Assembly: GCA_900318205.1 (NCBI GenBank)
Contig: ONJS01000007.1
Location: 124,001 to 188,000 of the forward strand
Direction of reading: 5' to 3'
DNA: 64,000 nt
Origin: an uncultured Prevotellaceae bacterium
Lineage (GTDB): Bacteria; Bacteroidota; Bacteroidia; Bacteroidales; Muribaculaceae
Position 1 is the first letter of the stretch; every line of letters begins with the position of its first letter. Position numbers and translations under genes: made by a program. A model generated the notes under the pieces. That model saw only the letters and a list, made by a program, of their open reading frames with translations. It had not been told where the DNA came from and searched no databases. Below are positions 11,098 to 40,412 of the stretch, in pieces.

Positions 11098-11158
11098 CTA
11101 GACCCTCTAGATTTTCTAGATCTTCTAGATAGTCTAGATTTTCTAGATTGTCTAGAGA
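11098..11158. repeat. 9-bp tandem array with TCTAGA core
   Basis: About seven units of 9 bp (CTAGATTTT, CTAGATCTT, CTAGATAGT and similar) between the fused amidase gene and the propeller gene, followed by CTAAAGC-type heptamers (11168-11196). A second array of this kind follows the amidase gene ending at 44007. Confidence 0.8.
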
Positions 11159-18276: not shown

Positions 18277-20328
18277 TTATTGTATATCACCTCTCATAAC
18301 AGGGGCCTTGAGCTCTGACGTCTTCAGGTCAAGCAAGTCACTCGGGTGACTGTCTTTTTTCTTGATGGTGAGTTGCTTGGCCTTCATGACGGTAACCTTG
18401 TTGGGCCACGTGCCGCTGAGCAGGTAGTTGATCAGGGCGGTCACGTCGGCGATCTTCACCTGGCCGTTCTGGTCGCAGTCGGCTGCTTGCAGGTTGATGC
18501 CCGATGCGTCGCCGCTGAGCAGGTAGTTGATCAGAGTGGTCACGTCACCGATCTTCACCTGGCCGTCACCGTTCACGTCGCCACGCATCGACGAGCTGCC
18601 GGCATAGGGTTCCCAAGCGGAATTACTCTGATTATAATGGTAGATAGCCCAATTCTTTGCGTTGGCTTGGCTGACCTGGGCGGCAGTGATGACATTCCCC
18701 TCGTCGGTTGAACCACTATTGGGATTGGGATCAACGATAGCATACACATTCCCCGTATCCCCGCTGCGTGTGGGCAGCCCGGCAATCAGATTTCCCATCG
18801 CGTTACTCTTGAGCTGGTTGTAATAAATAATCATAGTGGTAAGATTCGGGCAATTGCTCACATTCATGCTCGCAATCTGGTTGACTTGAGCATTTATTGT
18901 TTCAAGGCTGGTACAACCACTCAGGTTGAGGCTTGTGAGATTGTTCCAGTCGCACCACAGGTTTCTAAGATTCTCGTGGTTAGCAAGCTGCAAGCTTGAA
19001 ATCTGGTTGTCGGTACAAGCCAGTTGGTAAAGATTAGTAAACCTGCCGACATCAAGACTCGAGATCTGGTTATACCTGCAGTCAATTGATGCCAAAGTAT
19101 TACTATTACAGGGACTCAAATCCAGCGAGGTCAACTGGTTACTTCTACACCAAATGTATTCAAGGCTTGGGCAGCCACTGAGGTTCAAGTCGGTTAATTG
19201 GTTAATGCTGCAGTCGAGAAAAGAGAGTGCAGTGCAGCCGGTCACGTCAAGGTTGATCAAGTTGCATTCACTGCAGTAGAGCCCTGTCAGGCTTGTGTTG
19301 CCCGAGACCCTAAGTCTATTCAACTGGCTCAGGTTACTGACGTCGAGGCTGCCTGTCAGCTGGTTGTTGCGAGCCCACAGACGCTGCAGGTTCGTCATGT
19401 TGTTCACGCCGGGCAACTCGGTGATGGCACAGTCCTCACAGTCCAGATAGGTCAACGCGGTGCAATCGGCCAGGCCTGTGATTGCCCTCAGTTCATCATT
19501 GTAGTAGCACCAGAGTTTGTTTAACGCCGTGCAGCCCCCCACAATGAGCTGGACCAGGTCACACGAACTGCAATTGAGCTCAGTTAACCAATCGTTGCCC
19601 CTGACGTTTATATTCAGCAGCTTAGACAATCCCACCGCATCGAGCGTGGTCAGCAGGTTTCTGGCTGCTAACAGGTTTTCCAGATTCACCAAGTTTGTTA
19701 CGTTCAGGCTGGTGATGGCGCAGTCCTCACAATTGATTAAGGTCAAGGCGGTGCAGCTCTCCAGACCCTGGATGGTGCTCAGGTTGGGGTTGTAGAAACA
19801 CTTGAGGTCCTCTAACGCGGTACAATTATAGATATCAAGATTGTCGAGATTGTTGTGGGCGCAATAGAGTTTTGTCAGGTTGGGGTTGTTTTGTATCCAC
19901 AGCGTACGCAGGGCACTTTTCTGATATACTGTTAGGACGGTCAACTGGTTGTTCTGGAGATACAATTGCTCCAGAGCTGTATTGTTGTTCACTATGACTG
20001 ACGTCAGCTTGTTATATCCAAGATTCAGATATTTCAACTTGGTGAGGGGACTCGCGTCGAACGAAGTCAGGTTGTTATTATACAGGTTCAGCTTCGTCAA
20101 TTGGGTGAAATACTGCACACCCGTCATGTCGGAGATGCCCTTTCTTTGCAAGATCAGTTCGGTGCGGGCATTGAGCTGCGCCGTGGTGATGGTGCCGCTC
20201 GGATACTCGCTCATCAAGTAGGAGCGGAAGTTCGCGTCAGGGAAGTTGGTGGCGTTGATCGCCACGTCGGCTCGGGCTGCCAGCGTCGATAACAGCACTA
20301 CCAGAGTGAAGAGTAAAATCTTTTTCAT
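18277..20328 (-). CDS. Secreted leucine-rich-repeat protein with dockerin, copy 3
   Basis: Secreted protein of 683 residues with the same plan as copies 1 and 2: signal peptide (MKKILLFTLVVLLSTLAARA, identical to copy 1), LRR cap, Cys-containing leucine-rich repeats to about residue 510, a dockerin (about 578-637) and a C-terminal tail ending APVMRGDIQ. Its C-terminal LRRs and dockerin are nearly identical to copy 2 (SLDVGRFTNLYQLACT, GDVNGDGQVKIGDVTTLINY), while its N-terminus and promoter match copy 1. It therefore looks like a mosaic made by duplication and gene conversion. Confidence 0.9.
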   Translation of the reverse strand: MKKILLFTLVVLLSTLAARADVAINATNFPDANFRSYLMSEYPSGTITTAQLNARTELILQRKGISDMTGVQYFTQLTKLNLYNNNLTSFDASPLTKLKYLNLGYNKLTSVIVNNNTALEQLYLQNNQLTVLTVYQKSALRTLWIQNNPNLTKLYCAHNNLDNLDIYNCTALEDLKCFYNPNLSTIQGLESCTALTLINCEDCAITSLNVTNLVNLENLLAARNLLTTLDAVGLSKLLNINVRGNDWLTELNCSSCDLVQLIVGGCTALNKLWCYYNDELRAITGLADCTALTYLDCEDCAITELPGVNNMTNLQRLWARNNQLTGSLDVSNLSQLNRLRVSGNTSLTGLYCSECNLINLDVTGCTALSFLDCSINQLTDLNLSGCPSLEYIWCRSNQLTSLDLSPCNSNTLASIDCRYNQISSLDVGRFTNLYQLACTDNQISSLQLANHENLRNLWCDWNNLTSLNLSGCTSLETINAQVNQIASMNVSNCPNLTTMIIYYNQLKSNAMGNLIAGLPTRSGDTGNVYAIVDPNPNSGSTDEGNVITAAQVSQANAKNWAIYHYNQSNSAWEPYAGSSSMRGDVNGDGQVKIGDVTTLINYLLSGDASGINLQAADCDQNGQVKIADVTALINYLLSGTWPNKVTVMKAKQLTIKKKDSHPSDLLDLKTSELKAPVMRGDIQ

Positions 20329-23020: not shown

Positions 23021-24490
23021 TCACTGGACGGCATTGAACATTGCGCTGATGGCTTCTACCGAGCCGTTGATGTAGGCGTAGATGCACGAGATCAGGCCAA
23101 TGAGGATCACGCCAGCTACACACAGGATGAGTCCTGCACGCTCGGTCCAGTGGCTCTTGATGGTGGGGATGACGCAGTCGTCCTGACGCAGGAACATGGC
23201 CTTAACGACGAGCAGGTAGTAGTACAGCGAGATGATCGTGTTGACCAGCGCGATGAGTACCAGTGCGTAGATGGCTACTGAACCCTGATGGCAGGCACCC
23301 ACGAAGATGAAGAACTTGCTGAAGAAGCCTGCAAACGGGGGAATACCACCGAGCGAGAACATGGCAAGCATCATCGTGAAGGCGAGCCAGGGATTGGTCC
23401 TGAACAGGCCGTTGTAGTCGTCCATGGTGACGCGACCCGTCTGGCGCTCGATAGCGGCAATCACGCCGAAGGCGGCGAGGTTGCTGAAGATGTAAACCAG
23501 CACGTAGTAGATCATCGAGGACATACCCATCACGTTGACGGCAATCACACCGAGCATGATGTAACCGGCCTGGGAGATCGACGAGAAGGCCAGGAAGCGC
23601 TTCAGGTTGCGCTGGCGGATGGCAAACAGGTTACCCAGCGTGATGGTGAGAATGATGATGGCATAGAGCATCCATTCCCACACACGGCTATAGGCAGCAC
23701 CGAAGACCTGCACCAGGATCACCAGGAAGGCGAATGCGGCGGCACCCTTGCTGATGACCGACAGGTAGCTGGTCACAGCCGTGGGCGAGCCCTGGTAAAC
23801 GTCGGCAGTCCACTGGTGGAAGGGAACAAGCGAGAGCTTGAAGCCCACACCGGCGATGACAAACGCCAGGGCGGCGATGAGCAGTGCCGACTGGTTGCCC
23901 AGCAGCATCGTGGCGATCTCCTTGAAGTAGAGCGAGCCGCTCATGCCATAGACGAAGGAGATACCCAGCAGGAAAATCGCCGACGAGAAGATGGCAGTGA
24001 AGATGTACTTGGCTGCCGCCTCGTGGGACTCATAGTGGCGCTTCTCGAAGGCTGCCAGCGCTGCGATGGGCAGCGAGGCGGTCTCCAGACCGATGACAAA
24101 CAGCAGGAAGTGGCGTGCCGACACCATCAGGAACATACCGAACAGCGTCAGCAGGATCAACTCGTAGAACTCGCCGCGGCGAACGCTGACGAAGTCGCTG
24201 TTGGTCCACTTCACGGCCTGCAGGAGCACCAGCACGACGCCCACGTTGAGGATGTTCTTCATCACCCAGGTGGGAGCGTTGGACTCAAACATGCCGCCGA
24301 AGGCTTCTCCCACAGCAGCGGGTACACAGAAACAGTATATCGTGTAGAGCGCCATCATGATGACCGAGAAGACGGGCATGTAACGCTGAGCGCGCTCAGG
24401 CATGAAAGTGTCGTAGATGAAAACGAGCAGGAAAACCAGCAACAGGCCTATCTCCTGCGGCATCAATAAGAACTGTGAATAATCCATCAT
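23021..24490 (-). CDS. nuoN: NADH-quinone oxidoreductase subunit N
   Basis: Antiporter-like proton-pumping membrane subunit of complex I, 489 residues with many transmembrane helices. Key conserved parts are visible: FVIGLETASLPIAALAAF with the TM5-type Glu, and GVGFKLSLVPFHQWTADVY with the Lys and the PFHQW block, then GSPTAVTSYLSVISKGAA. It is the last gene of the nuo-atp operon, 40 bp after nuoM. The start could be either of two adjacent Met codons (24490 or 24487). Confidence 0.97.
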   Translation of the reverse strand: MMDYSQFLLMPQEIGLLLVFLLVFIYDTFMPERAQRYMPVFSVIMMALYTIYCFCVPAAVGEAFGGMFESNAPTWVMKNILNVGVVLVLLQAVKWTNSDFVSVRRGEFYELILLTLFGMFLMVSARHFLLFVIGLETASLPIAALAAFEKRHYESHEAAAKYIFTAIFSSAIFLLGISFVYGMSGSLYFKEIATMLLGNQSALLIAALAFVIAGVGFKLSLVPFHQWTADVYQGSPTAVTSYLSVISKGAAAFAFLVILVQVFGAAYSRVWEWMLYAIIILTITLGNLFAIRQRNLKRFLAFSSISQAGYIMLGVIAVNVMGMSSMIYYVLVYIFSNLAAFGVIAAIERQTGRVTMDDYNGLFRTNPWLAFTMMLAMFSLGGIPPFAGFFSKFFIFVGACHQGSVAIYALVLIALVNTIISLYYYLLVVKAMFLRQDDCVIPTIKSHWTERAGLILCVAGVILIGLISCIYAYINGSVEAISAMFNAVQ

Positions 24491-24530
24491 ATCTTTATTT
24501 TTGCTTTATTATCAGGTTAAACACTTTCAA

Positions 24531-26057
24531 TTACAAGGGCAGGGCAGCCTGCAGGGCCTCGACAACGGGGTTGAAGCTGCTCTTGATGATGTCAACAAAG
24601 AAGTTGGGGAAGCAACCGATGGCTGCCACAGCGAGAATCAGCGTCGCGGTGGACAGGCGCTCCTCCCACGAGGCGTCGGTCAACGTGCGGTGGTGCTCAT
24701 CCTGTACCTCGCCAAAGAGCAACTTGGCGACAACGCGCAGGATGTAAACCGCCGTCACAACGATCGAGGTGGTGGCCATGATGGTCAGCACGCGGTGGAA
24801 GGTGTCGGTGTGCTGGAATGAGCCGAAGAAGATGGTCATCTCGGCTGCGAAACCGCTCAGGTAGGGCAGACCCAACGATGCCAGACCGGCAATCACATAA
24901 CCTACACCCAGATAAGGCATGATGTGCATCATACCACCCATGTCGCGGATGTCACGCGTGTGGGTGCGGCCGTAGATCATACCGATCAGGGCAAAGAACA
25001 GGGCCGTCATCAGACCGTGAGAGAGCATCTGCAGCACAGCACCGGTCATCGCCGTGGTGTTGAACATCAGGATGGCGAACAGCACCATACCGCAGTGGCT
25101 CACCGACGAATAAGCGTTGATGTACTTGAGGTCGGTCTGCACACAGGCACTCAAGGCACCATAGACGATGCTGAAGCCCGTCAGCAGCAGGAAGATCCAT
25201 GCCAGCTCGTTGGCAGCAAACGGCATCAGGTAGATGGCGATGCGGAAGCAGCCGTAACCACCAAGCTTCATCAGTACACCGGCGTGGAGCATCGACACCG
25301 CGGTGGGCGCCGAGGCATGACCATCGGGAGACCAAGTGTGGAACGGGAACATGGCACCCAGCACGCCGAAGCCGACAAACGTCAGCGGGAACAGCACATA
25401 CTGCCAGCCGTGGGGGATGGCATCGTTATGGGCGATGTCCAGGATGTTCATCGTCAGCGGCTGTCCCTCGGGAGCCGAGTGGAAGTAGATGCCGATCAAG
25501 CCGAGCATCAGGAAGGCCGAGCCACCCATCAGCATCAGCGTCAGCTTCATCGCACTGTAGTTCTTGTTGCCGCTGCCCCACACACCAATCAGCAGGTACA
25601 TGGGAATCAGTGCGACCTCATAGAACATGAACATCGTGAATAGGTCGATCGAGATAAAGAAGCCAAACACACCCGTGGACAGCAGGAAGAACCACATGAA
25701 GAACTGGCGGGGCAGCGGGTTCATCTTCCACGAGGCGAAGACGCCGGCGAACACGATGAACGCCGACAGCAATATCATCACTACGCTCACGCCATCGACA
25801 CCGAGTGCCAGATGGACATTGAACGGGGCATACCACATCACATCGCTGCGCAGGATCATCTCGCTGGTGTCACCACCGGCACGCGCGTCAAGGAAAATCT
25901 TGACCAGCATGGCGGCGAGCACCATGAGCACGCTGGCACCGATAACGGCAACGGTCCTGATGGCCTTGATGCCCTGGTTGCGGCAGATGGCCAGGCCTCC
26001 AAGCGTCAGCAGAGGCACGATCACAAAGTAAATCAGTATATTATTGAAAAGTTCCAT
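24531..26057 (-). CDS. nuoM: NADH-quinone oxidoreductase subunit M
   Basis: Antiporter-like proton-pumping subunit of complex I, 508 residues, polytopic. Seen: MFMFYEVALIPMYLLIGVWG with the conserved Glu, MFPFHTWSPDGHASAPTAVS and MLHAGVLMKLGGYG. The block usually reads PFHTWLPDAH; here it is PFHTWSPDGH. It lies 36 bp after nuoL in the same operon. Confidence 0.97.
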   Translation of the reverse strand: MELFNNILIYFVIVPLLTLGGLAICRNQGIKAIRTVAVIGASVLMVLAAMLVKIFLDARAGGDTSEMILRSDVMWYAPFNVHLALGVDGVSVVMILLSAFIVFAGVFASWKMNPLPRQFFMWFFLLSTGVFGFFISIDLFTMFMFYEVALIPMYLLIGVWGSGNKNYSAMKLTLMLMGGSAFLMLGLIGIYFHSAPEGQPLTMNILDIAHNDAIPHGWQYVLFPLTFVGFGVLGAMFPFHTWSPDGHASAPTAVSMLHAGVLMKLGGYGCFRIAIYLMPFAANELAWIFLLLTGFSIVYGALSACVQTDLKYINAYSSVSHCGMVLFAILMFNTTAMTGAVLQMLSHGLMTALFFALIGMIYGRTHTRDIRDMGGMMHIMPYLGVGYVIAGLASLGLPYLSGFAAEMTIFFGSFQHTDTFHRVLTIMATTSIVVTAVYILRVVAKLLFGEVQDEHHRTLTDASWEERLSTATLILAVAAIGCFPNFFVDIIKSSFNPVVEALQAALPL

Positions 26058-26093
26058 TTAATATATCCTTTCTATTTTGTCAAGACCGTTGAA

Positions 26094-28091
26094 TTAGAAC
26101 AATACAAATACCATCGTGAGGGCTGCCAACAGGAGCGCGCCGATCAGATAGACATACACATAGATCTGGATGCTGCCCGACTGCAGACGGCGGATGCCGA
26201 ACGACAGCGAGTTGGTAGCATTGGCCAGCAGGTTGAAGAAGCCGTCGATGATGTGACGGTCAAACCATGCGATGGGTACACAGATGCCCTGGAAGATCAC
26301 CTTGTGGGTGATGAACTGGTAGAGCTCGTCCATGTAGAAGCGCTTGTAGCTTGCCTGCCACAGGCCGTGCATTGCGTTGGCCATGCGGTCGGGCAGCGGG
26401 TTCTCCTTGCGGTACATCACCGTGGCCAGGCCGATGCCCACCAGGGCGATGATGACACTCGTGCAGGCCACCTTCATATCGAGGGCGGTGTGCAGGTGAT
26501 GGCCGTCCCAGGTCACCATGTCGTGGAAGGGCACGAAGCCGGCAACGCACGAGATGGCAGCGAGGATAAGCAGGGGCACCGTCATTGTCCAAGGCTGATC
26601 CTTGGGTGCGTGGTGCTCATCGTGAACCTCATGTTTCTTCCAGAAGAAGATGAGGTAATAGATACGGAACATGTAGAAGGCGGTCATACCGGCCACCATC
26701 GACATCCAGATGCCCCAACCCAGGCCACGTTGGTAGGCAGCGACGAGAATCTCGTCCTTGCTCCAGAAACCGGCGAACGGGGGAATACCGGCAATCGCGA
26801 GACAGCCGATGAGGAAGCAGATGCTGGTAATGGGCATGAACTTGTGCAGGCCGTGCATCTTGCTGTTCTCATTGCTGTGAACGGCATGGATGATGGCACC
26901 GGCGCACAGGAAGAGCAACGCCTTGAACATAGCGTGGGTGAACAGGTGGAACATCGACGCCATGTAACCCAGACCGTAGCCTCCGTGAATCTCGATGAGC
27001 GAGTTGTTGTTGGAGCTCACGGCAAGCGAGGTCATCATGAAGGCGATCTGCGAGATGGTCGAGAAAGCCAGGGCTCGCTTGATATCACTCTGGGTGCAGG
27101 CAATCGCGGCGGCATAGAAGGCCGTGAAGGCACCGACCACCAGGATGATGTTCATCGCGCCCTGCACGAGCACGTAGAGCGGGAACAGCCTTGCTACCAG
27201 GAACACACCGGCGACAACCATGGTAGCGGCGTGGATCAGAGCCGAAACGGGGGTGGGACCCTCCATAGCATCGGGCAGCCAGATGTGCAACGGGTACATC
27301 GCACTCTTACCGGCACCGCCGATGAAGATGAAGGTCAATGCCCATGCCATCACCGAGCAACCCATGAAGGTGGCGCCTCCGGCAGTGCTGATGGCGCTCT
27401 GGGCAGTGTCCAGACTACCCGACATTGTGGGTCCAAAGACCAGCTTGTCGAAGTCGAAGGTGTTGGTATAGTAGCTCAGAATCATGACACCCAGCAGGAA
27501 GAACAGGTCAGCCAGACGGGTGACGATGAAGGCCTTCTTGTTGGCATGGTTGGCGGCAGGCAGTGAATAGTAGAAACCGATGAGCAGGTAGGATGACAGA
27601 CCCACCATCTCAAAGAATACGAAAATCTGGAAGATGTTGGTGGCTACCACCAGACCCAGCATCGAGAACGTGAACAGGGCCAGGAAGGCATAGTAACGCT
27701 GGAATCCCTTCTCGGCGTTGCCGTCATGGTCGCTCATGTACCCGAGGCTGTAGAGGTGCACCATCAACGATACCGTGGTGATGACCACGAGCATCATGGC
27801 AGCGATGGGATCGACGAGGACACCCATGCGCACCACCAGCGTATCGGTAAACGACAACCAGGCAGGATTGGCAACGACAACGGCCTGACGCACGCCGTCC
27901 ACTATCTGCCCCTGGCCGCTGCCGAAGAAGTAGGTCAGCGCCACGCCATAGGCGAGGATGGTATCGACGAGCATTGCCAGCACGCCAATCACACCAGTGA
28001 TTTTTCTACCCATTTTCACTCCGGCAAGTCCCAGGAAGAGGAACATGACCAGAGGTAATACGACAACTATAATTGCTAAACTTAGTGGCAT
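26094..28091 (-). CDS. nuoL: NADH-quinone oxidoreductase subunit L
   Basis: Largest antiporter-like subunit of complex I, 665 residues, carrying at its C-terminus the lateral helix region that spans the membrane arm. Seen: FVFFEMVGLSSYLLIGFYY (conserved Glu), GGAGKSAMYPLHIWLPDAM (conserved Lys) and EGPTPVSALIHAATMVVAGV. A His-rich loop (HEVHDEHHAPKD) lies before the C-terminal helices. It follows nuoK by 5 bp. Confidence 0.97.
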   Translation of the reverse strand: MPLSLAIIVVVLPLVMFLFLGLAGVKMGRKITGVIGVLAMLVDTILAYGVALTYFFGSGQGQIVDGVRQAVVVANPAWLSFTDTLVVRMGVLVDPIAAMMLVVITTVSLMVHLYSLGYMSDHDGNAEKGFQRYYAFLALFTFSMLGLVVATNIFQIFVFFEMVGLSSYLLIGFYYSLPAANHANKKAFIVTRLADLFFLLGVMILSYYTNTFDFDKLVFGPTMSGSLDTAQSAISTAGGATFMGCSVMAWALTFIFIGGAGKSAMYPLHIWLPDAMEGPTPVSALIHAATMVVAGVFLVARLFPLYVLVQGAMNIILVVGAFTAFYAAAIACTQSDIKRALAFSTISQIAFMMTSLAVSSNNNSLIEIHGGYGLGYMASMFHLFTHAMFKALLFLCAGAIIHAVHSNENSKMHGLHKFMPITSICFLIGCLAIAGIPPFAGFWSKDEILVAAYQRGLGWGIWMSMVAGMTAFYMFRIYYLIFFWKKHEVHDEHHAPKDQPWTMTVPLLILAAISCVAGFVPFHDMVTWDGHHLHTALDMKVACTSVIIALVGIGLATVMYRKENPLPDRMANAMHGLWQASYKRFYMDELYQFITHKVIFQGICVPIAWFDRHIIDGFFNLLANATNSLSFGIRRLQSGSIQIYVYVYLIGALLLAALTMVFVLF

Positions 28092-28096
28092 AATCG

Positions 28097-28408
28097 TTAG
28101 AATTTAAGTTTAGTGATTTTGTTGATGTCCACGTCCTTGGCAATGCGGAAGACATTGATGATGATGGCGAGGGCAAGAGCCGTCTCGGCAGCCGCGATGG
28201 CAATCGCGAACAGCGAGAAGAACATGCCGTCCATCTGACCAGGGAACAGGTAACGGTTAAACACCACAAAGTTGATATCCACCGAGTTGAGCATCAGCTC
28301 GAGTGAAATCATGATCGCAATCATGTTCTTGCGGGTGATGAAACCGTACACACCGCAGCCAAACATGATCAGGCTGGGAATAAGATACATAAACAGTGTC
28401 AAATCCAT
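28097..28408 (-). CDS. nuoK: NADH-quinone oxidoreductase subunit K
   Basis: Small three-helix subunit of complex I, 103 residues from the start at 28408 (MDLTLFMYLIP), which is the usual family length; the frame is open further upstream but that part is hydrophilic and not conserved. The two membrane Glu positions are visible in MISLELMLNSVDINF and AAAETALALAIII. Confidence 0.95.
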   Translation of the reverse strand: MDLTLFMYLIPSLIMFGCGVYGFITRKNMIAIMISLELMLNSVDINFVVFNRYLFPGQMDGMFFSLFAIAIAAAETALALAIIINVFRIAKDVDINKITKLKF

Positions 28409-28431
28409 AACTTTTCTCTCCTTTCTCGTGT

Positions 28432-28947
28432 TTAGCGGCGACGGGCAATTACCACACCTCCGATGATACAAGCCAATAACAACACACTGATGGCCTCAAA
28501 AGGCAACAGATAGCCATACTTGTCGGTACTCAACAGGAACTGGCCTATCTTCTCCATATTGACGTCCACTGAGCCGTTGAGCAGTCGCTTGGCAAAGTTG
28601 CCATAGCTGAACAGTCCGTAGCCGCACAGGGCGACACCTGCCACTGCTGCCGACAGTCCCAGCCAGCGACGGTGCGACGCGAGCACGTCGGCGTCCTGTC
28701 CGGGCTTATGCGTGAGCATGATGGCAAAGACGAACAGCACCAGAATACCGCCGGCATAGACGGCAATCTGCACTGCTCCCAGGAACTGGTAGTCCATCTG
28801 GAAGTAGATGATGGCTGTGGCGAAAAGCACAAACAGCAGATAAGTTGCGGAGCGCAGGATCTTGCGCGTAGTAACCGTCAGCACCGAGAAGACGATGATG
28901 GCGATCGCAACGATAAAATACAAAATGATGTTACCTAATGATTCCAT
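28432..28947 (-). CDS. nuoJ: NADH-quinone oxidoreductase subunit J
   Basis: Membrane subunit of complex I, 171 residues. Typical motif YFQMDYQFLGAVQIAVYAG (TM3 region with the pi-bulge) and GILVLFVFAIML. The start ATG overlaps the nuoI stop codon by one base (TAATG), indicating translational coupling. Confidence 0.95.
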   Translation of the reverse strand: MESLGNIILYFIVAIAIIVFSVLTVTTRKILRSATYLLFVLFATAIIYFQMDYQFLGAVQIAVYAGGILVLFVFAIMLTHKPGQDADVLASHRRWLGLSAAVAGVALCGYGLFSYGNFAKRLLNGSVDVNMEKIGQFLLSTDKYGYLLPFEAISVLLLACIIGGVVIARRR

Positions 28948-29537
28948 TATTCCTTGTTTTCTTTAGGTTTTTGATTAGTCTCGTCAGCAGCGGCGGGAGC
29001 CTCGGGGGCCGGCTTGGGAGCAGGCGCGGGCTTGGGCGCAGCGGGTGCCGCAGGCTTGGCGGCGGGTGCGGGAGCTGGAGCATCGTCCTTCTCGGGCAGG
29101 TAATTGAGCTGCTTGTTGAGCTTCTCGCGCGTGAACACCGCCTGCTCAAAGTCGTTGCTGAAGCGGATGGCGTTGGTGGGGCACACCTGTACACACAGAC
29201 CGCAGAAGGTGCAGCTGCCCAAGTCATACATGTACTTGTCCAGCTTCATTTTCTTCTTGCCGTCGGGCAGGTCCACCATGCGCTTGGTGATACTGATGGT
29301 CTGGTTGGGACAGTTGCGCTCGCAGCTGCCGCATGCGATGCACTTGTGGTAACCGTTGTCATCATAGATGAACTCCAGCGTCGCGCGGAATCGCTCCGGG
29401 ATATGGAGCTCGGCGCGATTCTCGGGATATTGCTCGGTCACCTTGGGGGTCACCAGCTCCTTGCCGGTCACCTCCATGCCCTTGATCAGGCTGTAAAAGC
29501 CTTTAAAGATTGAGACGAAATACTCCTTGATGCTCAT
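28947..29537 (-). CDS. nuoI: NADH-quinone oxidoreductase subunit I (2x4Fe-4S)
   Basis: Peripheral-arm ferredoxin-like subunit of complex I carrying clusters N6a/N6b, 196 residues. Both cluster motifs are intact: CIACGSCERNCP and CTFCGLCVQVCP. The last 50 residues form an Ala/Pro/Lys-rich low-complexity tail (APAPAAKPAAPAAPKP..) beyond the usual family end; its role is unknown. It restarts the nuo genes 37 bp after atpG, which is an odd junction: nuoI is usually next to nuoH. Confidence 0.96.
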   Translation of the reverse strand: MSIKEYFVSIFKGFYSLIKGMEVTGKELVTPKVTEQYPENRAELHIPERFRATLEFIYDDNGYHKCIACGSCERNCPNQTISITKRMVDLPDGKKKMKLDKYMYDLGSCTFCGLCVQVCPTNAIRFSNDFEQAVFTREKLNKQLNYLPEKDDAPAPAPAAKPAAPAAPKPAPAPKPAPEAPAAADETNQKPKENKE

Positions 29538-29574
29538 ATTCTTAGTCTTTTCTTGTTTTCTTTACAATTTCGCA

Positions 29575-30465
29575 TTAGCGTTCCACCTGTCCGCCCAGGA
29601 TATCGAGCAGCTCGGTGGTGATGCCCTGTTGACGCAGTTTGTTATACTCCAGCTGCAGTTCGTCGAGCAGCTCCTTGGCGTTGTCGCTGGCCGCCTGCAT
29701 CGCCATCACGCGTGCGCTCTGCTCGCTGGCGGCACTCTGGATGAAGACATCCTGGAGCATCGACTTGATGTGCAGGGGCAGCACGGTGTTGAAGATGGTG
29801 TTGGCGTCGGGCTCAAACAGGCAGGGGCTGTTGGCGGCGCGGGGGTCAACATTGTCGGCCAGGCCCTGGTAGCTCACCGGGAGCAACTGCTCGCGGGTGA
29901 ATACCTGCTTGCCGGTGGAGATGAAGTGCATGTACAGCATTTCCACGCGGTCGTAGGTGTGCTCCAGGAAACGGGTCTTCATCAGGTCGGTGAAGGCATA
30001 CAGGCCCTCATTGTCGCTGCGGGTGTTGAGGGCGACACGCTCCATCTCGATGCCGGAGCCCTTGCCGGTGATCTTCTGGACCGCCTTGGCCATCTTTTTG
30101 CCCACAGGGATGATGGTAATGCCCACCTGGCTGCCAAACTCGCTGCGCACCTCCTTGATGGTGGTGAGCAACTGCTTGAAGATGTTGACGTTGAAACCGC
30201 CGCACAGGCCGTCGTCGCTGCCGAACACCACCAGAGCGACACGCTGCACATCGCGCTGGGCGATGAGCGGCGAGTCAAACTGCTGGTCGGTCACCAGCAG
30301 GTGGCTGATGACGTGTTGCACCATGTGGCGGTAGGGCGACAGGCGCTGCAGTTGGCCGGTGGCCTTACGCATCTTGGACGAGCTGATCATCTTCATGGCG
30401 CTCGTCGTCTTCTGCGTTGAGGCGACCGAACCTATTCGCGTCTTGAGTTCTCTTAATGTTGACAT
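29575..30465 (-). CDS. atpG: ATP synthase gamma subunit
   Basis: Central rotor stalk of F1, 296 residues. The N-terminus MSTLRELKTRIGSVASTQKTTSAMKMISSSKM and the C-terminus NAKELLDELQLEYNKLRQQGITTELLDI form the coiled-coil shaft; GSDDGLCGGFNVN is the typical central motif. It lies 22 bp after atpA and is the last atp gene before nuoI. Confidence 0.96.
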   Translation of the reverse strand: MSTLRELKTRIGSVASTQKTTSAMKMISSSKMRKATGQLQRLSPYRHMVQHVISHLLVTDQQFDSPLIAQRDVQRVALVVFGSDDGLCGGFNVNIFKQLLTTIKEVRSEFGSQVGITIIPVGKKMAKAVQKITGKGSGIEMERVALNTRSDNEGLYAFTDLMKTRFLEHTYDRVEMLYMHFISTGKQVFTREQLLPVSYQGLADNVDPRAANSPCLFEPDANTIFNTVLPLHIKSMLQDVFIQSAASEQSARVMAMQAASDNAKELLDELQLEYNKLRQQGITTELLDILGGQVER

Positions 30466-30487
30466 CTTGCGAACTTAAATTGCTGGA

Positions 30488-32083
30488 TTAACTGGCTGGA
30501 GCCTCAATATACTTGGTAGCTACCTCGGCGGCAGCGGCCTTGAGCTTAGCCATGACGTCGTCATCAATCTTGCCCGAGCGCAGCACGTCGAGCACATCGG
30601 TCTGGTGCTTGCCGCGCAGGTAGTTGATGAACAGTTTCTCAAACTCACCCACCTTCTCCAGGGGCACGTCGCGCAGCAGGCCGTTCACACCGCAATAGAT
30701 GATGGCTACCTGCTCCTCGACGACCATGGGAGTGTACTGGGCCTGGACGAGCAGGCGCTCGTTCTTGCGACCGGTATCGATGGTGCGTGCGGTAACGGGG
30801 TCGATGTCTCCACCGAACTTGGTAAAGGCCTCGAGCTCACGGTACTGTGCCTGAGCGATCTTGAGGGTACCAGCCACCTTCTTCATACACTTGATCTGGG
30901 CGTTACCACCCACACGGGATACCGAGATACCCACGTTGACGGCGGGACGGATACCCGAGTTGAACAGCGCCGACTCGAGGTAGATCTGACCGTCGGTGAT
31001 CGAGATGACGTTGGTGGGGATATAGGCGCTCACGTCGCCGGCCTGGGTCTCGATGATGGGCAATGCCGTCAACGAGCCGCCGCCCTTGACGATGGGCTTG
31101 AGCGGTGCGGGCAGGTCGTTCATCACGCTGGCCACGTCCTGGTTCTCGTTGATCTTGGCGGCGCGTTCCAGCAGACGGCTGTGCAGGTAGAAGATATCGC
31201 CGGGATAAGCCTCGCGGCCCGAGGGGCGCTTGAGGATCAGCGAGATCTCACGATAGGCAACAGCGTGCTTGGACAGGTCGTCATAGATTACCAGGGCGTC
31301 GCGACCGGTGTCACGGAAGTATTCACCGATGGCGGCACCGGCAAAGGGTGCATAGTAGCGCATCGAAGCCGAGTCGGCTGCGGTGGCTGCCACTACGATG
31401 GTGTAGGGCATAGCGCCAGCCTCCTTGAGCTTGTTCACCAGGGCGGCAACGGTCGATGCCTTCTGGCCGATGGCGACATAGATGCAATATACCGGCTTGC
31501 CGGCCTCGTAGCCTGCACGCTGGTTGATGATGGTGTCCACCGCGATGGCGGTCTTGCCGATCTGGCGGTCACCGATGATGAGCTCACGCTGGCCACGGCC
31601 GATGGGAATCATCGAGTCGATGGCCTTGAGACCCGTCTGTAACGGCTGGTTCACGGGCTGGCGGAAGATAACGCCGGGAGCCTTACGCTCCAGCGGCAGA
31701 CGCACCCTCTTGCCCTCGATGTGACCATTGCCGTCGATGGGCTTGGCCAGGACGTTGATCACGCGGCCAAGGAGTCCCTCACCGACCTCGATGGAGGCGA
31801 TCTCGCCCGTGCGGCGCACCTTCATGTTCTCGGTGATGGTATCCACCTCGTCGAGCAGGATAATACCCACATCGCTCTCTTCCAGGTTCATGGCGACGCC
31901 CGTCACGCCGTTCTCGAACTGCACGAGCTCGTTGGCCTCCACGTTGTGCAGGCCGTAGGCATGAGCCACGCCGTCACCCACCTCCAGGACGGTGCCTTCT
32001 TCTTCAAAGACGGCTTGCCGCTTGGCGATGTCGTTGACGAGCTGTTGCTTTAATATATCAGATATTTCACTGGGATTAATCAT
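30488..32083 (-). CDS. atpA: ATP synthase alpha subunit
   Basis: Non-catalytic nucleotide-binding subunit of F1, 531 residues. The Walker A motif is GDRQIGKT, where most alpha subunits read GDRQTGKT; the GKT core is intact. Other blocks: [32 protein letters not shown] and [18 protein letters not shown]. It lies 10 bp after atpH. Confidence 0.98.
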
Positions 32084-32093
32084 CGTGTTGAAA

Positions 32094-32636
32094 TTATTTC
32101 TTCAGCAGTTGTAATTGCAATTCGTTCAATTCTCTCTTTACCGACGCGTCGAGTACGAGCCCGTTGATTGCCACTGTAAAGCCACCGATCAACTCGGGGT
32201 CGATCTTTTGCTCAATTTCCAGTGTCATGGCACCGAGACGCTTTTTCACAATGTCGATAATGGCATTGATCTCGGCCTCGGGCATGGGGGCTGCAGTGGT
32301 GATGACCACATGGGCTATCTCATGCTCCTCGCGGTAGAGATCGACGTAGGCGAGGGAAATCTTCTGCAGGTACTCGGCGCGGTTGTTGCGCACACACAGC
32401 AGCAGGAACTTGTCCAGTGAGCTGCCGGGCTTGCCGCCCGCGAGTTTCAGCATATAGGCACCCTTTTCCTCGTCAGAGATTTCGGGGTTGAGCACGGCGC
32501 GCTTGAGCTCGTCGATAGCGGCGTAACGGAAACTGAGCTGTTTAAGAAGCTCATAGATTTCCTGTGCGTCACCGTTCTCGACGGCTAACTTGTACAACGC
32601 TTTGGCGTATCGGCGTGGAATCAGTCCGTCACTCAT
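32094..32636 (-). CDS. atpH: ATP synthase delta subunit
   Basis: Peripheral stalk subunit joining F1 to the b dimer, 180 residues. Typical start ([17 protein letters not shown]) and C-terminal beta region ([29 protein letters not shown]). Lies 6 bp after atpF. Confidence 0.95.
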
Positions 32637-32642
32637 ATCGCG

Positions 32643-33140
32643 TTAGTTTTTAGACTCAACCTCACTCAGATATTGGTCAACAAGCGCACGCTGGGCATCG
32701 TCATTGGCGATGTTCTTGCGGATCACCTTCTCGGCAATCTGCAAGGCCAGGTCACCGACCTCGGTGCGCAGTTGCTTCTCGGCCTCCTTGCGAGCCTGCT
32801 CAAGGGAGACTTGAGCGGCATCGGTCACTTTCTTAGCCTCGACAGCTGCCTCGCCACGGGCGTTCTCGATGAGCTGGTTGCGCATCTTCTCGGCTTCCCG
32901 CAGCATCTCGTTCTGCTTGTCGTGGGCTTCAGCGATCAACTTGTCCGCCTCGGCCTTGGCATTATCCAGATGTGACTTAGCCTCCTGTGCATAGGCGACG
33001 CCCTTGTCGATCAGGTCGGCACGTTCCTCCATACTCTTGATGATGAAGGGCCATGCCCACTTGGCAAGGATGCCGAACAGGCAAAGGAATGCGATGAACA
33101 TCCAGAACGCCAGGCCAAATTCAGGCTTGAAAAGTTCCAT
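32643..33140 (-). CDS. atpF: ATP synthase b subunit
   Basis: Peripheral stalk subunit, 165 residues: one N-terminal membrane helix (FGLAFWMFIAFLCLFGILAKWAW) and a long charged helix (KSHLDNAKAEADKLIAEAHDKQNEML.. ) that dimerises. Lies 23 bp after atpE. Confidence 0.95.
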   Translation of the reverse strand: MELFKPEFGLAFWMFIAFLCLFGILAKWAWPFIIKSMEERADLIDKGVAYAQEAKSHLDNAKAEADKLIAEAHDKQNEMLREAEKMRNQLIENARGEAAVEAKKVTDAAQVSLEQARKEAEKQLRTEVGDLALQIAEKVIRKNIANDDAQRALVDQYLSEVESKN

Positions 33141-33163
33141 CTGGTAAACCGGTTAAGGGTTGA

Positions 33164-33406
33164 TTACTTGATGAAGATGGCAAGGATGCAGACGATGAGT
33201 GCGAAGAAAGCAACACCCTCGATCAGCGCGGCGATAACAATCATGTTACTGCGGATGTCGCCGGTTGACTCGGGCTGACGGGCGATAGCCTCCATGGCGC
33301 TGCCGCCAATTCTACCAATACCGATACCTGCTGCGATAGCTGCGATACCTGCTCCAATTGCTGCGCCAAGGTTGGCCATAGCTTCTAATAAAATCATTCC
33401 TAACAT
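33164..33406 (-). CDS. atpE: ATP synthase c subunit
   Basis: Membrane rotor ring subunit, 80 residues and two helices joined by the ARQPE loop. The ion-carrying Glu is in AALIEGVAFFA. The residues that mark sodium-binding rings (Gln in helix 1, and Ser after the Glu) are absent: here Ile and Gly. By motif this is a proton-type ring, which fits its operon with a proton-pumping complex I. Confidence 0.96.
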   Translation of the reverse strand: MLGMILLEAMANLGAAIGAGIAAIAAGIGIGRIGGSAMEAIARQPESTGDIRSNMIVIAALIEGVAFFALIVCILAIFIK

Positions 33407-33496
33407 AGTCGTAAAGTTTTTAGTTTGTTATTGTTGTTAATGTTTTTTAATATTCTTGTTATTGATAATCAGTTGATTATATATCCTGATTTGAAC

Positions 33497-34570
33497 TTAC
33501 TCGGCATGCTCGTGCACGTGGGCCATCGAGATGAACATCGTCGACAGGATCGTGAACACATAGGCCTGGATGAAGCTTACCAGCACGTCGAGCAAGAGCA
33601 TGAACAGTGACAGAGCCACCGAGAGCGGCGTCATCACGCCACCGATGGCCGTGCCGAACATGCTGCCGAAGATGAAGATCAACAGCATGAACACGATCAC
33701 CACCATGTGACCACCCATCATGTTCGCAAAAAGACGAATCATCAGGGCGATGGGCTTGGTGAAGATACCGAACAGCTCGATAATCTGCATCAGCGGCACG
33801 GGAAGCTTGAGGGCGGTGGGCACTTCGGGCCAGAAGATCTCTTTCCAGTAGTGCTTGGTACCCGTCAGGTTGGTCACCAGGAAGGTGAGCAGGGCGAGAA
33901 CCGCTGTCACGGCGAGGTTGCCCGTCAGGTTGGCGCCACCGGGGAAGATGACGATCAGTCCCAACAGGTTCATCGTCAGGATGAAGAAGAACGCCGTCAA
34001 CAGGTAGGGGGCATACTTGGGTGCCTCCTTACCCATGATGGGGCGGATGGTGTCGGTATAGACGAAGTCCACCACCAGCTCCAGTGAGGCGGTAAAGCGG
34101 CGCGGTGCCTTCATTCCGTTCTTCTTGTACCAGTTGCGCACCTTGAAGACCATGAGCAGCACCAGCAGGGCGGCAATGAAGATGCCGGCCACATTCTTGG
34201 TGATGGACAGGTCGATGGGGCGGTACTGGGAGCCGTCGGGCAGCACTTGGACCACCTTGTTGTTGTAGTCCCCGCCCTTGGCGATCTGGAAGCCGTCATA
34301 CTGTGCACCTTCCTCCAAGCGGTTGGACATGAAGGCGTGCCACGAGCCGTCCTGGGCTCGCACGATGACGGGTAACGGGATGCGCTGGCTATGGTTGAAC
34401 GGCACTTCCCAGCCGTAGGCATCGCCCAGGTGCTCAAAGATGATCTCCTGGGGATCCACCTCGGTCTCCCCGCCGCCACTGTGGGCGCGATGGGCTGCCG
34501 CATCGGCATATCCCAGGGCCATGAGGGCGATGATGGCTACCGCGATGATTGCTGTGATTGCTTTCTTCAT
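33497..34570 (-). CDS. atpB: ATP synthase a subunit
   Basis: Stator subunit with the proton half-channels, about 357 residues. The start at 34570 (MKKAITAIIAVAIIALMALGYADAAA) gives a signal-peptide-like first helix, followed by about 90 extra-membrane residues, then the usual helical domain. The essential Arg is in PIALMIRLFANMMGGH. The long N-terminal part is common in Bacteroidetes a subunits. Ten bp after atpC; the frame stays open further upstream but would overlap atpC. Confidence 0.94.
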   Translation of the reverse strand: MKKAITAIIAVAIIALMALGYADAAAHRAHSGGGETEVDPQEIIFEHLGDAYGWEVPFNHSQRIPLPVIVRAQDGSWHAFMSNRLEEGAQYDGFQIAKGGDYNNKVVQVLPDGSQYRPIDLSITKNVAGIFIAALLVLLMVFKVRNWYKKNGMKAPRRFTASLELVVDFVYTDTIRPIMGKEAPKYAPYLLTAFFFILTMNLLGLIVIFPGGANLTGNLAVTAVLALLTFLVTNLTGTKHYWKEIFWPEVPTALKLPVPLMQIIELFGIFTKPIALMIRLFANMMGGHMVVIVFMLLIFIFGSMFGTAIGGVMTPLSVALSLFMLLLDVLVSFIQAYVFTILSTMFISMAHVHEHAE

Positions 34571-34580
34571 AGTCTCTGCG

Positions 34581-34814
34581 TCAATATAAGCACACCGACA
34601 CCACATTATCCTTGACATCGGCTACACCGCCGTGAATCTCACGCTCCACGGTGCTGCCACCGGCCACATAGCTCATCGTGCCGGCCTTGAGGGCGGCGAT
34701 GAGGGCGGCGTGGTTCTTGAGCACCTGGAACATACCCATGACGCCAGGGAGGGTCACGGCATCGACGGTGCCTTCAAACTCGATTTGTTCAGCCGATATG
34801 ATTTTGAGTGTCAT
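34581..34814 (-). CDS. atpC: ATP synthase epsilon subunit, short form
   Basis: Rotor subunit of 77 residues (MTLKIISAEQIEFEGTVDAV.. GGVADVKDNVVSVCLY). Only the N-terminal beta-sandwich is present. The C-terminal two-helix domain that inhibits ATP hydrolysis in many bacteria is missing. Short epsilon subunits are, as I recall, usual in Bacteroidales, so this is unlikely to be a truncation. Lies 41 bp after atpD. Confidence 0.93.
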   Translation of the reverse strand: MTLKIISAEQIEFEGTVDAVTLPGVMGMFQVLKNHAALIAALKAGTMSYVAGGSTVEREIHGGVADVKDNVVSVCLY

Positions 34815-34855
34815 GTTATATTAATAATGTAAATATTCTAAAGCGTAGTGGTTGA

Positions 34856-36373
<1,518 letters not shown>

Positions 36374-36405
36374 TTATTATTGTGTTATTGATGTTATTAG
36401 CTAAA

Positions 36406-37488
36406 TCATGCACCGAAGTACCATCCCTTGGTAACGATGATGGCCATGATAACCAGGTTGACCAGGCCGATGGGCATCAGGTAGCGCCACTCCAGGGCGA
36501 GCATCTGGTCGATGCGCACGCGGGGGAAGGACCAACGGATCCAGAAGAAGATGAAGGTGATGAAGAAGGCCTTACCCAGGAACCATACCACACTGGGGAT
36601 GTAATTCATGATGGTGTTGAAGCCTTCCCAGCCAGGGATGTGCAGGGGCATCCAGCCGCCCAGGAAGAGCAGCGTGGCGATACCCGAGACGATGAACAGG
36701 TTCAGGTACTCGGCCAGGTAGAAGAAGCCGAAGTGGATACCTGAGTACTCGGTGTGGTAACCGGCGGTCAACTCGTGCTCGGCCTCGGGGAGGTCAAACG
36801 GGCCGCGGTTGTTCTCGGCGTTGGCGGCGATCATATAAATAATGAACGCGAGGATGGCGGGCAGGTGGCCCTTGAAGATGAACCAACCGTCCTCCTGAGC
36901 CTCGACGATGCCCGTTACCGACATGGTGCCGGCCAGGCAGACGATCGTCAGGATAGAGATGCCACAGGACAGCTCGTAGCTGACCATCTGGGCACCACTA
37001 CGCATAGCGCCGATAAGGGTGTACTTGCTGTTACTGGACCAGCCGGCCAGCAGGATACCCAGCACGCCGATCGACGACACGGCGACGATAAAGAACACGC
37101 CGATGTTCATGTCGATGACCTGCAGGCCCTTGCCCCAAGGCAGACAGGCGAAGGTCAGCATCGAGGCGATCAACACCAGGTAGGGCGCGAGCTTGAAGAG
37201 GAACTTGTCGGTGTTCCACAGGGTAATCAGCTCCTTCTGCAGGATCTTGATCACGTCGGCAAACACCTGGAGCAAACCCCATTTACCCACACGCATCGGG
37301 CCCAGGCGGCACTGGATCCAACCGCAGACCTTGCGCTCGTAGAAGATGTAGAACATGGCGATGAGCGAATAAGCGACCAGCAGTCCCACGGCTACCAGCA
37401 CACACTCGATTGTCGTGGTGAGCCATGACGGCATGTAGGTGTTGAGGAACTCATCTAACCATCTCGTGACTATACCGAAGTCAAACAT
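36406..37488 (-). CDS. nuoH: NADH-quinone oxidoreductase subunit H
   Basis: Membrane subunit at the quinone-binding site that joins the arms of complex I, 360 residues. Seen: [42 protein letters not shown] and [27 protein letters not shown]. Normally followed by nuoI in Bacteroidetes; here eight atp genes intervene. Confidence 0.97.
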
Positions 37489-37540
37489 AATTCTTATCTT
37501 GTTTTAGTGGTTTTGTTCTGTCTTTATTAACTCGTTGACA

Positions 37541-39175
37541 TCAGCGGTCGATGTCGGGGATGACGAAGTCGAGCGATGCCGTGATGGTGATCAGGTCAGC
37601 AATCAGGTTGTCGCGGCACGTCAGGTCCACCACGCCGATAAGGTTGAAGCACGGCGACTGGAAGTGGACGCGCACGGGCTTGGTGTTGCCGTCGCTCTCG
37701 ATATACACGCCGAAGGCGCCGCGGCTGGCCTCGACCTGCTGGTACCAGTGGCCGACGGGCAGCTTCATCACCTTGGGCACCTTGGGAGCGCAGTACTCGC
37801 CCTGGAGACCCTCGGCCTCGAGCTTGTCACAGGCCTGGCGCAGGATCTTGATGCACTCTTCCATCTCCTTCATGCGGACCATGTAGCGGTCCATCGAGTC
37901 GCCGTTCTTGTAAACGACCTCGTCGAAGTCGAACTCGTTGTACAGCGAGTAGGGGTTGGTCTTGCGCACGTCACAGTGCCATCCGCTGGCACGGCCCGAG
38001 GGACCGGTGATGTCATAGGCGATGGCGTCCTCTTTGCTCAGGATGCCCACGCCCGTCATGCGGTTCACAGCGATGACGTTGCCGGTGAAGAGCTTGTGGT
38101 ATTCCTTGAGGGCCTTCTCGATGACGTCGCATGCGTGGCGCACGTCCTTGACGAAGTCCTCATGCACGTCGGCCACCACGCCGCCGATGGTGCTGTAGCT
38201 CATCGACATGCGGGCGCCGCAGGTGCGGTCAAAGATATCGTAGATCAATTCCCTCTCACGGAAACCGTAGAAGAAGGCGGTCGTGGCACCCTGGTCCATC
38301 GTCAAGCAGCCGTAGCTCAGCAAATGTGACGACAGGCGCATCAGCTCGTCCATCATCAGGCGGATGAGCTCGGCACGGCGGGGCACCTCGATGCCGAGGG
38401 CCTTCTCGACACACATGCACATGCAGTGACGGTTGATGTGGGCGGCCATGTAGTCCATGCGCTCGGTGTAGAGGAGCATCTGGGGATAGGTCAGGCTCTC
38501 ACACATCTTCTCGATGCCGCGGTGGATGTATCCGCTCACGACGTCGATCTTCTTGACCGTCTCGCCGTCGAGGCTGGCACGGTAGCGCATCACACCGTGG
38601 GTGGACGGGTGCTGCGGGCCGACGTTGACAACATACTCGTCGTCCTCAAAGACCTTGCCATCCACTTTCTTGACCTTGCCGTTCTCGTCCTCGACCCAGC
38701 GGCAGGTGTAGTCCTCGTTGGTCTCGTCCTCGAGACGCAGGGGGTTGCTGGCGGGGTCGTAGTCCTTGCGCAGGGGGTAACCCACCCAGTCGTTGCGCAG
38801 GAACATGCGGCGCATGTCGGGGTGACCGATGAAGATGATGCCATAGAAGTCATACACCTCGCGCTCCTGGAAGTTGGCCACGGGCCACAGGTCCACAACG
38901 CTGTGCAGCATGGGGTTCTCGCGGTCGGGGGCGGTGACCTTGACGTGCAGCAGTTCGTGGGTGGTGATGTTGGTCAGGTAGTAAACGCAGCCACGGGCAT
39001 CGGGCCATTCCATGCCCACAACGGCGTTGAGCACGCGATAGTTCAACTCGTTCTTGAGAGCGCGGGCCAGGTCATGCCATTGTGCGTCGGGCACGGTCAC
39101 CAGCGGGAATTCGCCGGTAGTATCGACTTGAGCCTGGGGACACAACTTGGTGATTTTGTCTTGTATCTCTGCCAT
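37541..39175 (-). CDS. nuoCD: Fused NADH-quinone oxidoreductase subunits C and D
   Basis: Peripheral-arm protein of about 544 residues in which NuoC (about 1-150) and NuoD (about 180-544) are one chain, a fusion known in several bacterial groups. NuoD features: NVGPQHPSTHGVMRY, SGYIHRGIEK, ERMDYMAAHINRH, GPSGRASGWHCDVRKT and the C-terminal DFVIPDIDR. The start was set at 39175 (MAEIQDKITKL). Together with NuoB it forms the quinone pocket. Confidence 0.96.
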   Translation of the reverse strand: MAEIQDKITKLCPQAQVDTTGEFPLVTVPDAQWHDLARALKNELNYRVLNAVVGMEWPDARGCVYYLTNITTHELLHVKVTAPDRENPMLHSVVDLWPVANFQEREVYDFYGIIFIGHPDMRRMFLRNDWVGYPLRKDYDPASNPLRLEDETNEDYTCRWVEDENGKVKKVDGKVFEDDEYVVNVGPQHPSTHGVMRYRASLDGETVKKIDVVSGYIHRGIEKMCESLTYPQMLLYTERMDYMAAHINRHCMCMCVEKALGIEVPRRAELIRLMMDELMRLSSHLLSYGCLTMDQGATTAFFYGFRERELIYDIFDRTCGARMSMSYSTIGGVVADVHEDFVKDVRHACDVIEKALKEYHKLFTGNVIAVNRMTGVGILSKEDAIAYDITGPSGRASGWHCDVRKTNPYSLYNEFDFDEVVYKNGDSMDRYMVRMKEMEECIKILRQACDKLEAEGLQGEYCAPKVPKVMKLPVGHWYQQVEASRGAFGVYIESDGNTKPVRVHFQSPCFNLIGVVDLTCRDNLIADLITITASLDFVIPDIDR

Positions 39176-39196
39176 ATTGTAATGTTTCAATTTTTC

Positions 39197-39272
39197 GGTT
39201 TTCAGTTTTCAGTTTTCAGTTTTCAGTTGATTGCGGATGCCGCTGACAACTGACAACTGATGACTGAAAACT
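39197..39272. repeat. TTTTCAG heptamer element inside the nuo operon
   Basis: Four TTTTCAG units, a GCGGATGC module and opposed CTGACAA/CTGAAAA units lie in the 109-bp gap between nuoB and nuoCD. The two sides are roughly complementary and could form a hairpin within the operon mRNA. Confidence 0.75.
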
Positions 39273-39284
39273 ATAAAAATCTAT

Positions 39285-39881
39285 TTATTTCTCCTCGGGT
39301 GTGTACTGCAGGCCCTCGAGTTTCTCCTTGCGGTTCACGCCGCCAAAGTACTTCTGCACCTTGATCTTGCGCTGCAGCTGCATCAGGGCATAGAAGAATG
39401 CCTCGGGACGCGGCGGGCAACCGGGCAGATAGACGTCAACGGGGATGATCTCGTCAACACCCTTGACGACACAGTAGCTGTTCTTGAAAGGACCGCCGCT
39501 CACGGTGCACGAACCGCAGGCGATGACATACTTGGGCTCGGCCATCTGCTCGTAGAGGCGCTTTAGCGCCGGAGCCATGCGATAGTTGATGGTGCCCTGG
39601 CACATGATGTAGTCGGCCTGGCGGGGGCTGTTGCGTGCCACCTCAAAGCCGTAGCGCGCCATGTCGTAGCGGGCAGCGCCCAGACACATGAACTCGATGG
39701 CACAGCAGCTGGTGCCGAAGCACAACGGCCACAATGAGTTGCTCACACCCCAGTTCATCAACTGGTCCAGCTTGCCCACAATGATGTTGGTGCCGCCGGC
39801 GCGCAGTTGCTCTACCAGGTTGTCGATATACTCGTTGTCCTTGAAGTCCTCATGCTTCATCGATTTGATTTTCACTTCCAT
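39285..39881 (-). CDS. nuoB: NADH-quinone oxidoreductase subunit B
   Basis: Peripheral-arm subunit holding cluster N2, about 198 residues. Cluster ligands are visible: LCFGTSCCAIEFM, IACGSCTVSGG and YLPGCPPRPEAF. The start was set at 39881 (MEVKIKSMKHEDF), overlapping nuoA by 10 bp; more upstream codons are open but lie inside nuoA. Confidence 0.96.
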   Translation of the reverse strand: MEVKIKSMKHEDFKDNEYIDNLVEQLRAGGTNIIVGKLDQLMNWGVSNSLWPLCFGTSCCAIEFMCLGAARYDMARYGFEVARNSPRQADYIMCQGTINYRMAPALKRLYEQMAEPKYVIACGSCTVSGGPFKNSYCVVKGVDEIIPVDVYLPGCPPRPEAFFYALMQLQRKIKVQKYFGGVNRKEKLEGLQYTPEEK

Positions 39882-40246
39882 CTCAACGCTCCTTTCTTCC
39901 AGGCATAAGCCAGACCTAAAACGAGAATAACAAGGAAGGTACCCACGGCATAGAGTGCCTGGCCACCGATGTTCTTGCAGATGGTTGCCCACGGGAACAG
40001 GAAGACCGTCTCGACGTCAAACATCAGGAACAGGATGGCGAACAGGTAATAGCCCACATGGAACTGGGCCATAGAATCGCCGCGTGTGGGGATACCGCAC
40101 TCGAAGGGCTCACCCTTCTTCTTGGTGTAGCTGCGCGGGCCGATCAGCCACGCGATAACCAGGGCGCCGACTACCAGCAACACACCGGTCAAGGCCGCTG
40201 TAATCGCCATCGTCGTGCTCTGTACTCCGAAAATTGATAAATCCAT
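39872..40246 (-). CDS. nuoA: NADH-quinone oxidoreductase subunit A
   Basis: Small three-helix membrane subunit, 124 residues from the start at 40246 (MDLSIFGVQST). Typical motifs: PFECGIPTRGDSMAQFHVGYYLFAILFLMFDVETVFLFPW. First gene of the nuo-atp operon, about 135 bp after its probable promoter. Confidence 0.96.
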   Translation of the reverse strand: MDLSIFGVQSTTMAITAALTGVLLVVGALVIAWLIGPRSYTKKKGEPFECGIPTRGDSMAQFHVGYYLFAILFLMFDVETVFLFPWATICKNIGGQALYAVGTFLVILVLGLAYAWKKGALRWK

Positions 40247-40380: not shown

Positions 40381-40412
40381 CAAATGTACGAATTATTAAT
40401 TAAACCGCCAAC
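40381..40412 (-). promoter_or_regulatory. Promoter of the nuo-atp operon
   Basis: On the minus strand GTTG (40409-40412), 20 bp, TACATTTG (40381-40388). It would give a leader of about 130 nt before nuoA and is the only good minus-strand promoter I see ahead of the 17-kb gene run. Confidence 0.55.

Follow-up and report, generated by a model that had tools for sequence, protein, structure and literature searches.

How did the genes for two respiratory complexes, complex I and the F-type ATP synthase, come to be interleaved on a bacterial chromosome, and are they expressed together? The question is raised by a 64,000-nucleotide stretch of DNA (the window) from an uncultured Prevotellaceae bacterium that the GTDB lineage places in Muribaculaceae (GenBank assembly GCA_900318205.1, contig ONJS01000007.1, positions 124,001 to 188,000). 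On its minus strand, from the ATG of nuoA at 40246 to the stop codon of nuoN at 23021, 18 genes without internal stops follow each other in the order nuoA-B-CD-H, atpD-C-B-E-F-H-A-G, and nuoI-J-K-L-M-N. The largest intergenic gap is 109 bp (nuoCD–nuoB); the gaps at the nuoH–atpD and atpG–nuoI junctions are 50 bp and 37 bp, respectively. Gene order, single strand, and spacing were thus as described in the original prediction. We consider it quite likely that the locus derives from one ancient operon fusion that was inherited vertically and is probably read as one transcript.

The arrangement was found in many independent assemblies. Among 59 named public loci found with NuoH, nuoH was followed by atpD in 52, and 41 of these 52 ran through atpG to nuoI; in the remaining seven, nuoH was followed by nuoI (four loci) or nuoJ (two distant loci), or the sequence ended within nuoH (L084). 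The family of the window (f1, which we infer to be Muribaculaceae) was represented by 128 genomes, each at least 90% complete. NuoH and AtpD were each detected in 127 of them, both being absent from G473 (94% complete), and nuoH and atpD were adjacent on the same strand in 125, with a match-to-match gap of 22–176 bp (median, 55 bp). The two exceptions, G493 and G544, had NuoH and a partial AtpD on different contigs, which breaks between contigs would explain. The whole nuo-atp-nuo arrangement was also present in L168 and L169, each from a genome listed as a single contig. Because the order is conserved across these loci, the family, and the order-wide sample described below, the interleaving is real and no chance arrangement. 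Although the window belongs to a 53-contig genome, an artefact of assembly or binning that brought two operons together is next to impossible and was rejected, since the same order recurs in the 52 loci from many assemblies, nuoH–atpD adjacency in the 125 family genomes, and the whole arrangement in the two one-contig genomes.

Integration of these operons is already known for Muribaculaceae. The available portions of a 2016 report (PMC4936053) describe how the complex I locus of S24-7, or 'Ca. Homeothermaceae' (Muribaculaceae), includes the genes of an F-type ATP synthase, and the window, with its atp genes inside the complex I locus, agrees with that description. The same portions record the F-type ATP synthase in 26 of 30 genomes, the absence of both complexes from genome H5, and the possibility that NADH is oxidised by Nqr instead in this family; G473, without NuoH and AtpD, resembles H5 in this absence. 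Relative to those portions, the junction, the promoter contrast, the seven-family range, and the single origin are new here. A literature search, missing most subscription journals, found no other mention of nuo-atp integration.

We compared the nuoH–nuoI junction across 295 Bacteroidales genomes, of which 107 had a NuoH match stronger than 1e-100; weaker matches, representing a second NuoH type, are outside this count. The neighbours of nuoH, read in loci L001–L030 and L090–L166, showed interleaving in 22 genomes and nuoH followed by nuoI in 84, with one genome (L160) undecided as its contig ends after nuoH. The interleaved genomes span seven families (f1, f22, f28, f60, f68, f88, and f109). 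Interleaving is therefore not general in the order. The original prediction had set the arrangement against Bacteroidetes in which the nuo and atp operons are separate, and this holds insofar as most sampled Bacteroidales differ from it; however, this genome is not alone in having it, the arrangement being shared by 125 of the 128 family genomes and six further families, and having appeared already in the 2016 report as far as that text was available.

Outside the order, we used a phylum-wide sample of 148 genomes, 131 of which had NuoH, including the window's own; the other 130 were searched for AtpD, and all were positive. NuoH and AtpD lay within 3 kb of each other in none of the 121 genomes outside the order having both places among the matches listed; nine of the 130 had no NuoH place among those matches and fall outside this count, and other genomes may have second NuoH copies that were missed likewise. 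Two of the largest respiratory machines in one operon are thus unusual in the phylum as far as these matches go, and within Bacteroidales the fusion provides an old gene-order marker common to the seven sampled families. As a separate case, 11 genomes of the phylum had nuoH and atpD within 30 kb, always on opposite strands (ten at 7–14 kb, one at 21.5 kb); the 7–14 kb neighbourhoods were found in f134, f146, and f152 (e.g., G418, G325, G431, and G426).

We also compared joint presence in 59 genomes, which were hand-chosen and include related genomes, so that the counts indicate a tendency and represent no test. AtpD (threshold, 1e-60) was present in all 21 interleaved genomes, 24 of 30 with contiguous nuo operons, and seven of eight without NuoH; the joint presence of nuo and atp appears looser, as a tendency, where the operons lie apart. 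Expression, amount, and assembly of such complexes are normally set independently. One conceivable reason for the persistence of the fusion is that complex I and ATP synthase work as a single proton circuit in this clade, joined physically or assembled during translation: a common message would supply both at one membrane site, perhaps for a supercomplex, and neither would be gained or lost without the other. We regard this explanation as highly improbable. With the related separate-operon families as controls, the clade could serve as a natural experiment on whether fusing operons ties together expression, amount, or assembly.

Next, we considered the origin of the fusion. In a tree of NuoH and NuoCD (115 rows, with the undecided L160 counted among the contiguous rows), the 28 interleaved rows were split from all other rows by a single branch (SH-aLRT, 99), and one state change accounted for the distribution. 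The AtpD tree (45 rows) likewise required one state change, its 23 interleaved rows forming one group (support, 98/92). Comparison of the arrangements suggests that an atp operon of eight genes entered the space between nuoH and nuoI in the common ancestor of the seven sampled families, leaving every gene intact. The nuo operon before this event would have encoded an 11-subunit complex I with NuoC and NuoD fused, the direction of change being our inference, and the two gene trees point to vertical inheritance afterwards. At its new site, the atp operon probably lost its own promoter, as suggested by the motifs described below.

The eight-gene unit had counterparts elsewhere. Among 19 stretches holding atp loci apart from nuo (L200–L218), the order atpD-C-B-E-F-H-A-G, identical to that of the window, was complete in 11 and could be followed until the end of the contig or stretch in two more; in the other six, atpD-C were separated from the rest, or the rest lay outside the stretch. 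The order is thus common in Bacteroidales, but not universal. The atpC–atpB gap measured 383–485 bp in ten of the 13 such loci compared, 62 and 71 bp in family f106, and 168 bp in f9; in interleaved loci, it ranged from −26 to 162 bp. A gene of 119–164 aa occupied nine of the ten gaps examined, and in f9 (L206) the frame resembles the start of atpB by eye. The short gap common to f106 and the interleaved loci suggests either that this insert gene had already disappeared when the fusion took place or that f106 and the interleaved loci have a common history in their atp parts. The insert gene probably encodes a membrane protein (L202, L203, L205, L207–L210, L212, and L217); three of the nine proteins were tested, and none had a Pfam match over the cut-off.

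Family f106 also complicates the account of a single fusion. It was the nearest neighbour of the interleaved group in the AtpD tree (100/100), yet the NuoH and NuoCD tree drew it beside f24 (the support of that fork was not printed). This disagreement weighs against the simplest version of our account: with f106 nearest by AtpD but elsewhere by NuoH and NuoCD, the atp part may have had a more complex history. One alternative is that a ready-made nuo-atp cassette spread horizontally and was not inherited vertically. In its favour, NuoH was present in 13 of the 29 f106 genomes (the family includes G106, G585, and G587), and the AtpD of these 13 was of a type near the interleaved clade (75–77% identity), whereas the 11 AtpD-positive genomes without NuoH had another type (69–70%); moreover, in three of the 13, atpD and nuoH shared a contig at distances of about 23, 27, and 68 kb. 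However, in both trees a single branch separates the interleaved rows from all others, and the adjacency was kept in 125 of the 128 family genomes. We therefore consider cassette spread improbable.

To what extent the fused operon is one regulatory unit was assessed from promoter motifs. Bacteroidetes promoters follow the pattern TTG, 17–24 bases, and TAnnTTTG, and we scanned for it within 300 bp upstream of genes. Between 22.5 and 41.5 kb of the window, the only match on the minus strand was TTG-N20-TACATTTG (40411–40381), upstream of nuoA; the single promoter proposed earlier (40381–40412) coincides with it. Neither the A-rich nuoH–atpD junction (36356–36405) nor the atpG–nuoI junction (29538–29574) held a match. 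Across interleaved loci, the full pattern preceded nuoA in 45 of 49 and nuoI in none of 43. Before interleaved atpD, it was found in four of 96 rows, which represent at most 74 genomes (22 rows are repeats, and many are close relatives), that is, in two genomes (G209 and G142); before atpD apart from nuo, it was found in seven of 19. The −7 element alone preceded interleaved atpD in ten of the 96 rows (six genomes) versus 17 of 19 for atpD apart from nuo, which sets the latter loci apart from the window. Full matches elsewhere in the interleaved operon were equally rare (nuoCD, 4/95; atpA, 4/95; nuoH, 0/96), so that the rate before atpD was the same.

This promoter pattern makes tied expression of nuo and atp likely. 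A single message of about 17 kb, started at the nuoA promoter, would probably cover all 18 genes, and the proton pump of complex I and the proton-driven synthase would share one transcriptional switch because of that single message; differences in protein amount would then be set after transcription. A terminator scan of the window gave 13 sites versus a shuffle mean of 14.7, with no excess. Promoter-like sites of the sigma-70 type numbered 18 versus a shuffle mean of 10.7, although that type is not the Bacteroidetes one. A literature search on transcription of the locus and on the nuoH–atpD junction turned up nothing relevant.

Several observations weigh against a single message. In contiguous operons, only ten of 78 nuoA genes were preceded by the full pattern and 27 of 78 by its −7 part, so a missing pattern is weak evidence; furthermore, the full pattern preceded contiguous nuoI in six of 90, and the −7 part alone preceded interleaved nuoCD in 31 of 95. 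All three f88 genomes had a −7 element in the nuoH–atpD region, with full matches there in G209 and G142, and one of 60 further family nuoH–atpD junctions had a full match. Given these elements and matches, some lineages may have promoters inside the operon.

Such starts would favour an alternative in which the two gene sets are neighbours without regulatory union: an internal promoter, or processing into separate stable messages, would allow the complexes to be tuned independently. Besides the f88 elements, with full matches in two genomes, and the single match among the 60 further junctions, this alternative could draw on a hairpin at the nuoH–atpD junction of a Muribaculum-like subgroup, a covarying structure at which the message might be processed or stabilised. 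The hairpin has 11 pairs with UGA in the loop and is followed by GGAC(C/U)AA (L074 at about 11100–11140, L075–L079, and L089). Seven of its 11 pairs were changed on both sides among seven sequences, three of which are near copies, and 93.5% of cells were paired versus 29–58% when the alignment was slid. However, the full promoter match preceded atpD in only four of the 96 rows (two of at most 74 genomes) and nuoI in none of 43, and the junctions are short. We regard independent tuning as possible, though doubtful, and favour a single message from nuoA.

Among the junctions compared, the hairpin was restricted to the Muribaculum-like subgroup. It was absent from the 60 further family junctions, which were hand-picked from 107 listed and are not a random sample, and the idea of a general conserved RNA element at this junction was consequently rejected. 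Between 22500 and 41000 of the window, no known RNA family was detected at the gathering threshold.

All 18 products matched models of the expected families, with nuoA, atpC, nuoI, and nuoJ below the curated cut-offs of their models, and the genome carried one copy each of NuoH, AtpD, and AtpB. All genes lie on the minus strand. The first nuo part comprises nuoA (39872–40246), nuoB (39285–39881; NF011391), the nuoCD fusion (37541–39175; NF004739), and nuoH (36406–37488; NF004741). The second comprises nuoI (28947–29537), nuoJ (28432–28947), nuoK (28097–28408; NF004320), nuoL (26094–28091; NF005141), nuoM (24531–26057; TIGR01972), and nuoN (23021–24490; TIGR01770), the models named being matched over their cut-offs here and below. 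Together, they form the complete 11-subunit complex I set (nuoA, B, C, D, and H to N), with C and D fused and A, I, and J below the cut-offs. Genes for NuoE, F, and G were absent from the operon, to which this search was confined, the rest of the genome not being searched. Like the operon in the window, the complex I operon of Bacteroides fragilis (11 subunits; BF638R_0841–0850) encodes Nuo without NuoEFG, and, according to the accessible portions of PMC7002350, that complex is predicted to pump protons with electrons from an unknown donor; unlike the locus in the window, its operon is described there alone, with no mention of atp genes inside.

The ATP synthase set is complete as well, consisting of atpD (beta; 34856–36355; TIGR01039), atpC (epsilon; 34581–34814), atpB (a; 33497–34570; TIGR01131), atpE (c; 33164–33406; TIGR01260), atpF (b; 32643–33140; TIGR01144), atpH (delta; 32094–32636; TIGR01145), atpA (alpha; 30488–32083; TIGR00962), and atpG (gamma; 29575–30465; TIGR01146). 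Epsilon is a short form of 77 aa below the cut-off; because its match covers only the first, N-terminal part of longer epsilon models, the C-terminal helical domain seems absent, and AtpC matches in atp loci apart from nuo were similarly short. At the carboxylate of the c subunit, E is followed by G-V-A. Sodium-type c rings carry E-S-T.

Apart from this locus, the window holds three similar tandem genes (13468–16050, 16370–18010, and 18277–20328) whose products, as judged by eye, are secreted, resemble leucine-rich-repeat proteins, and have dockerin-like ends.

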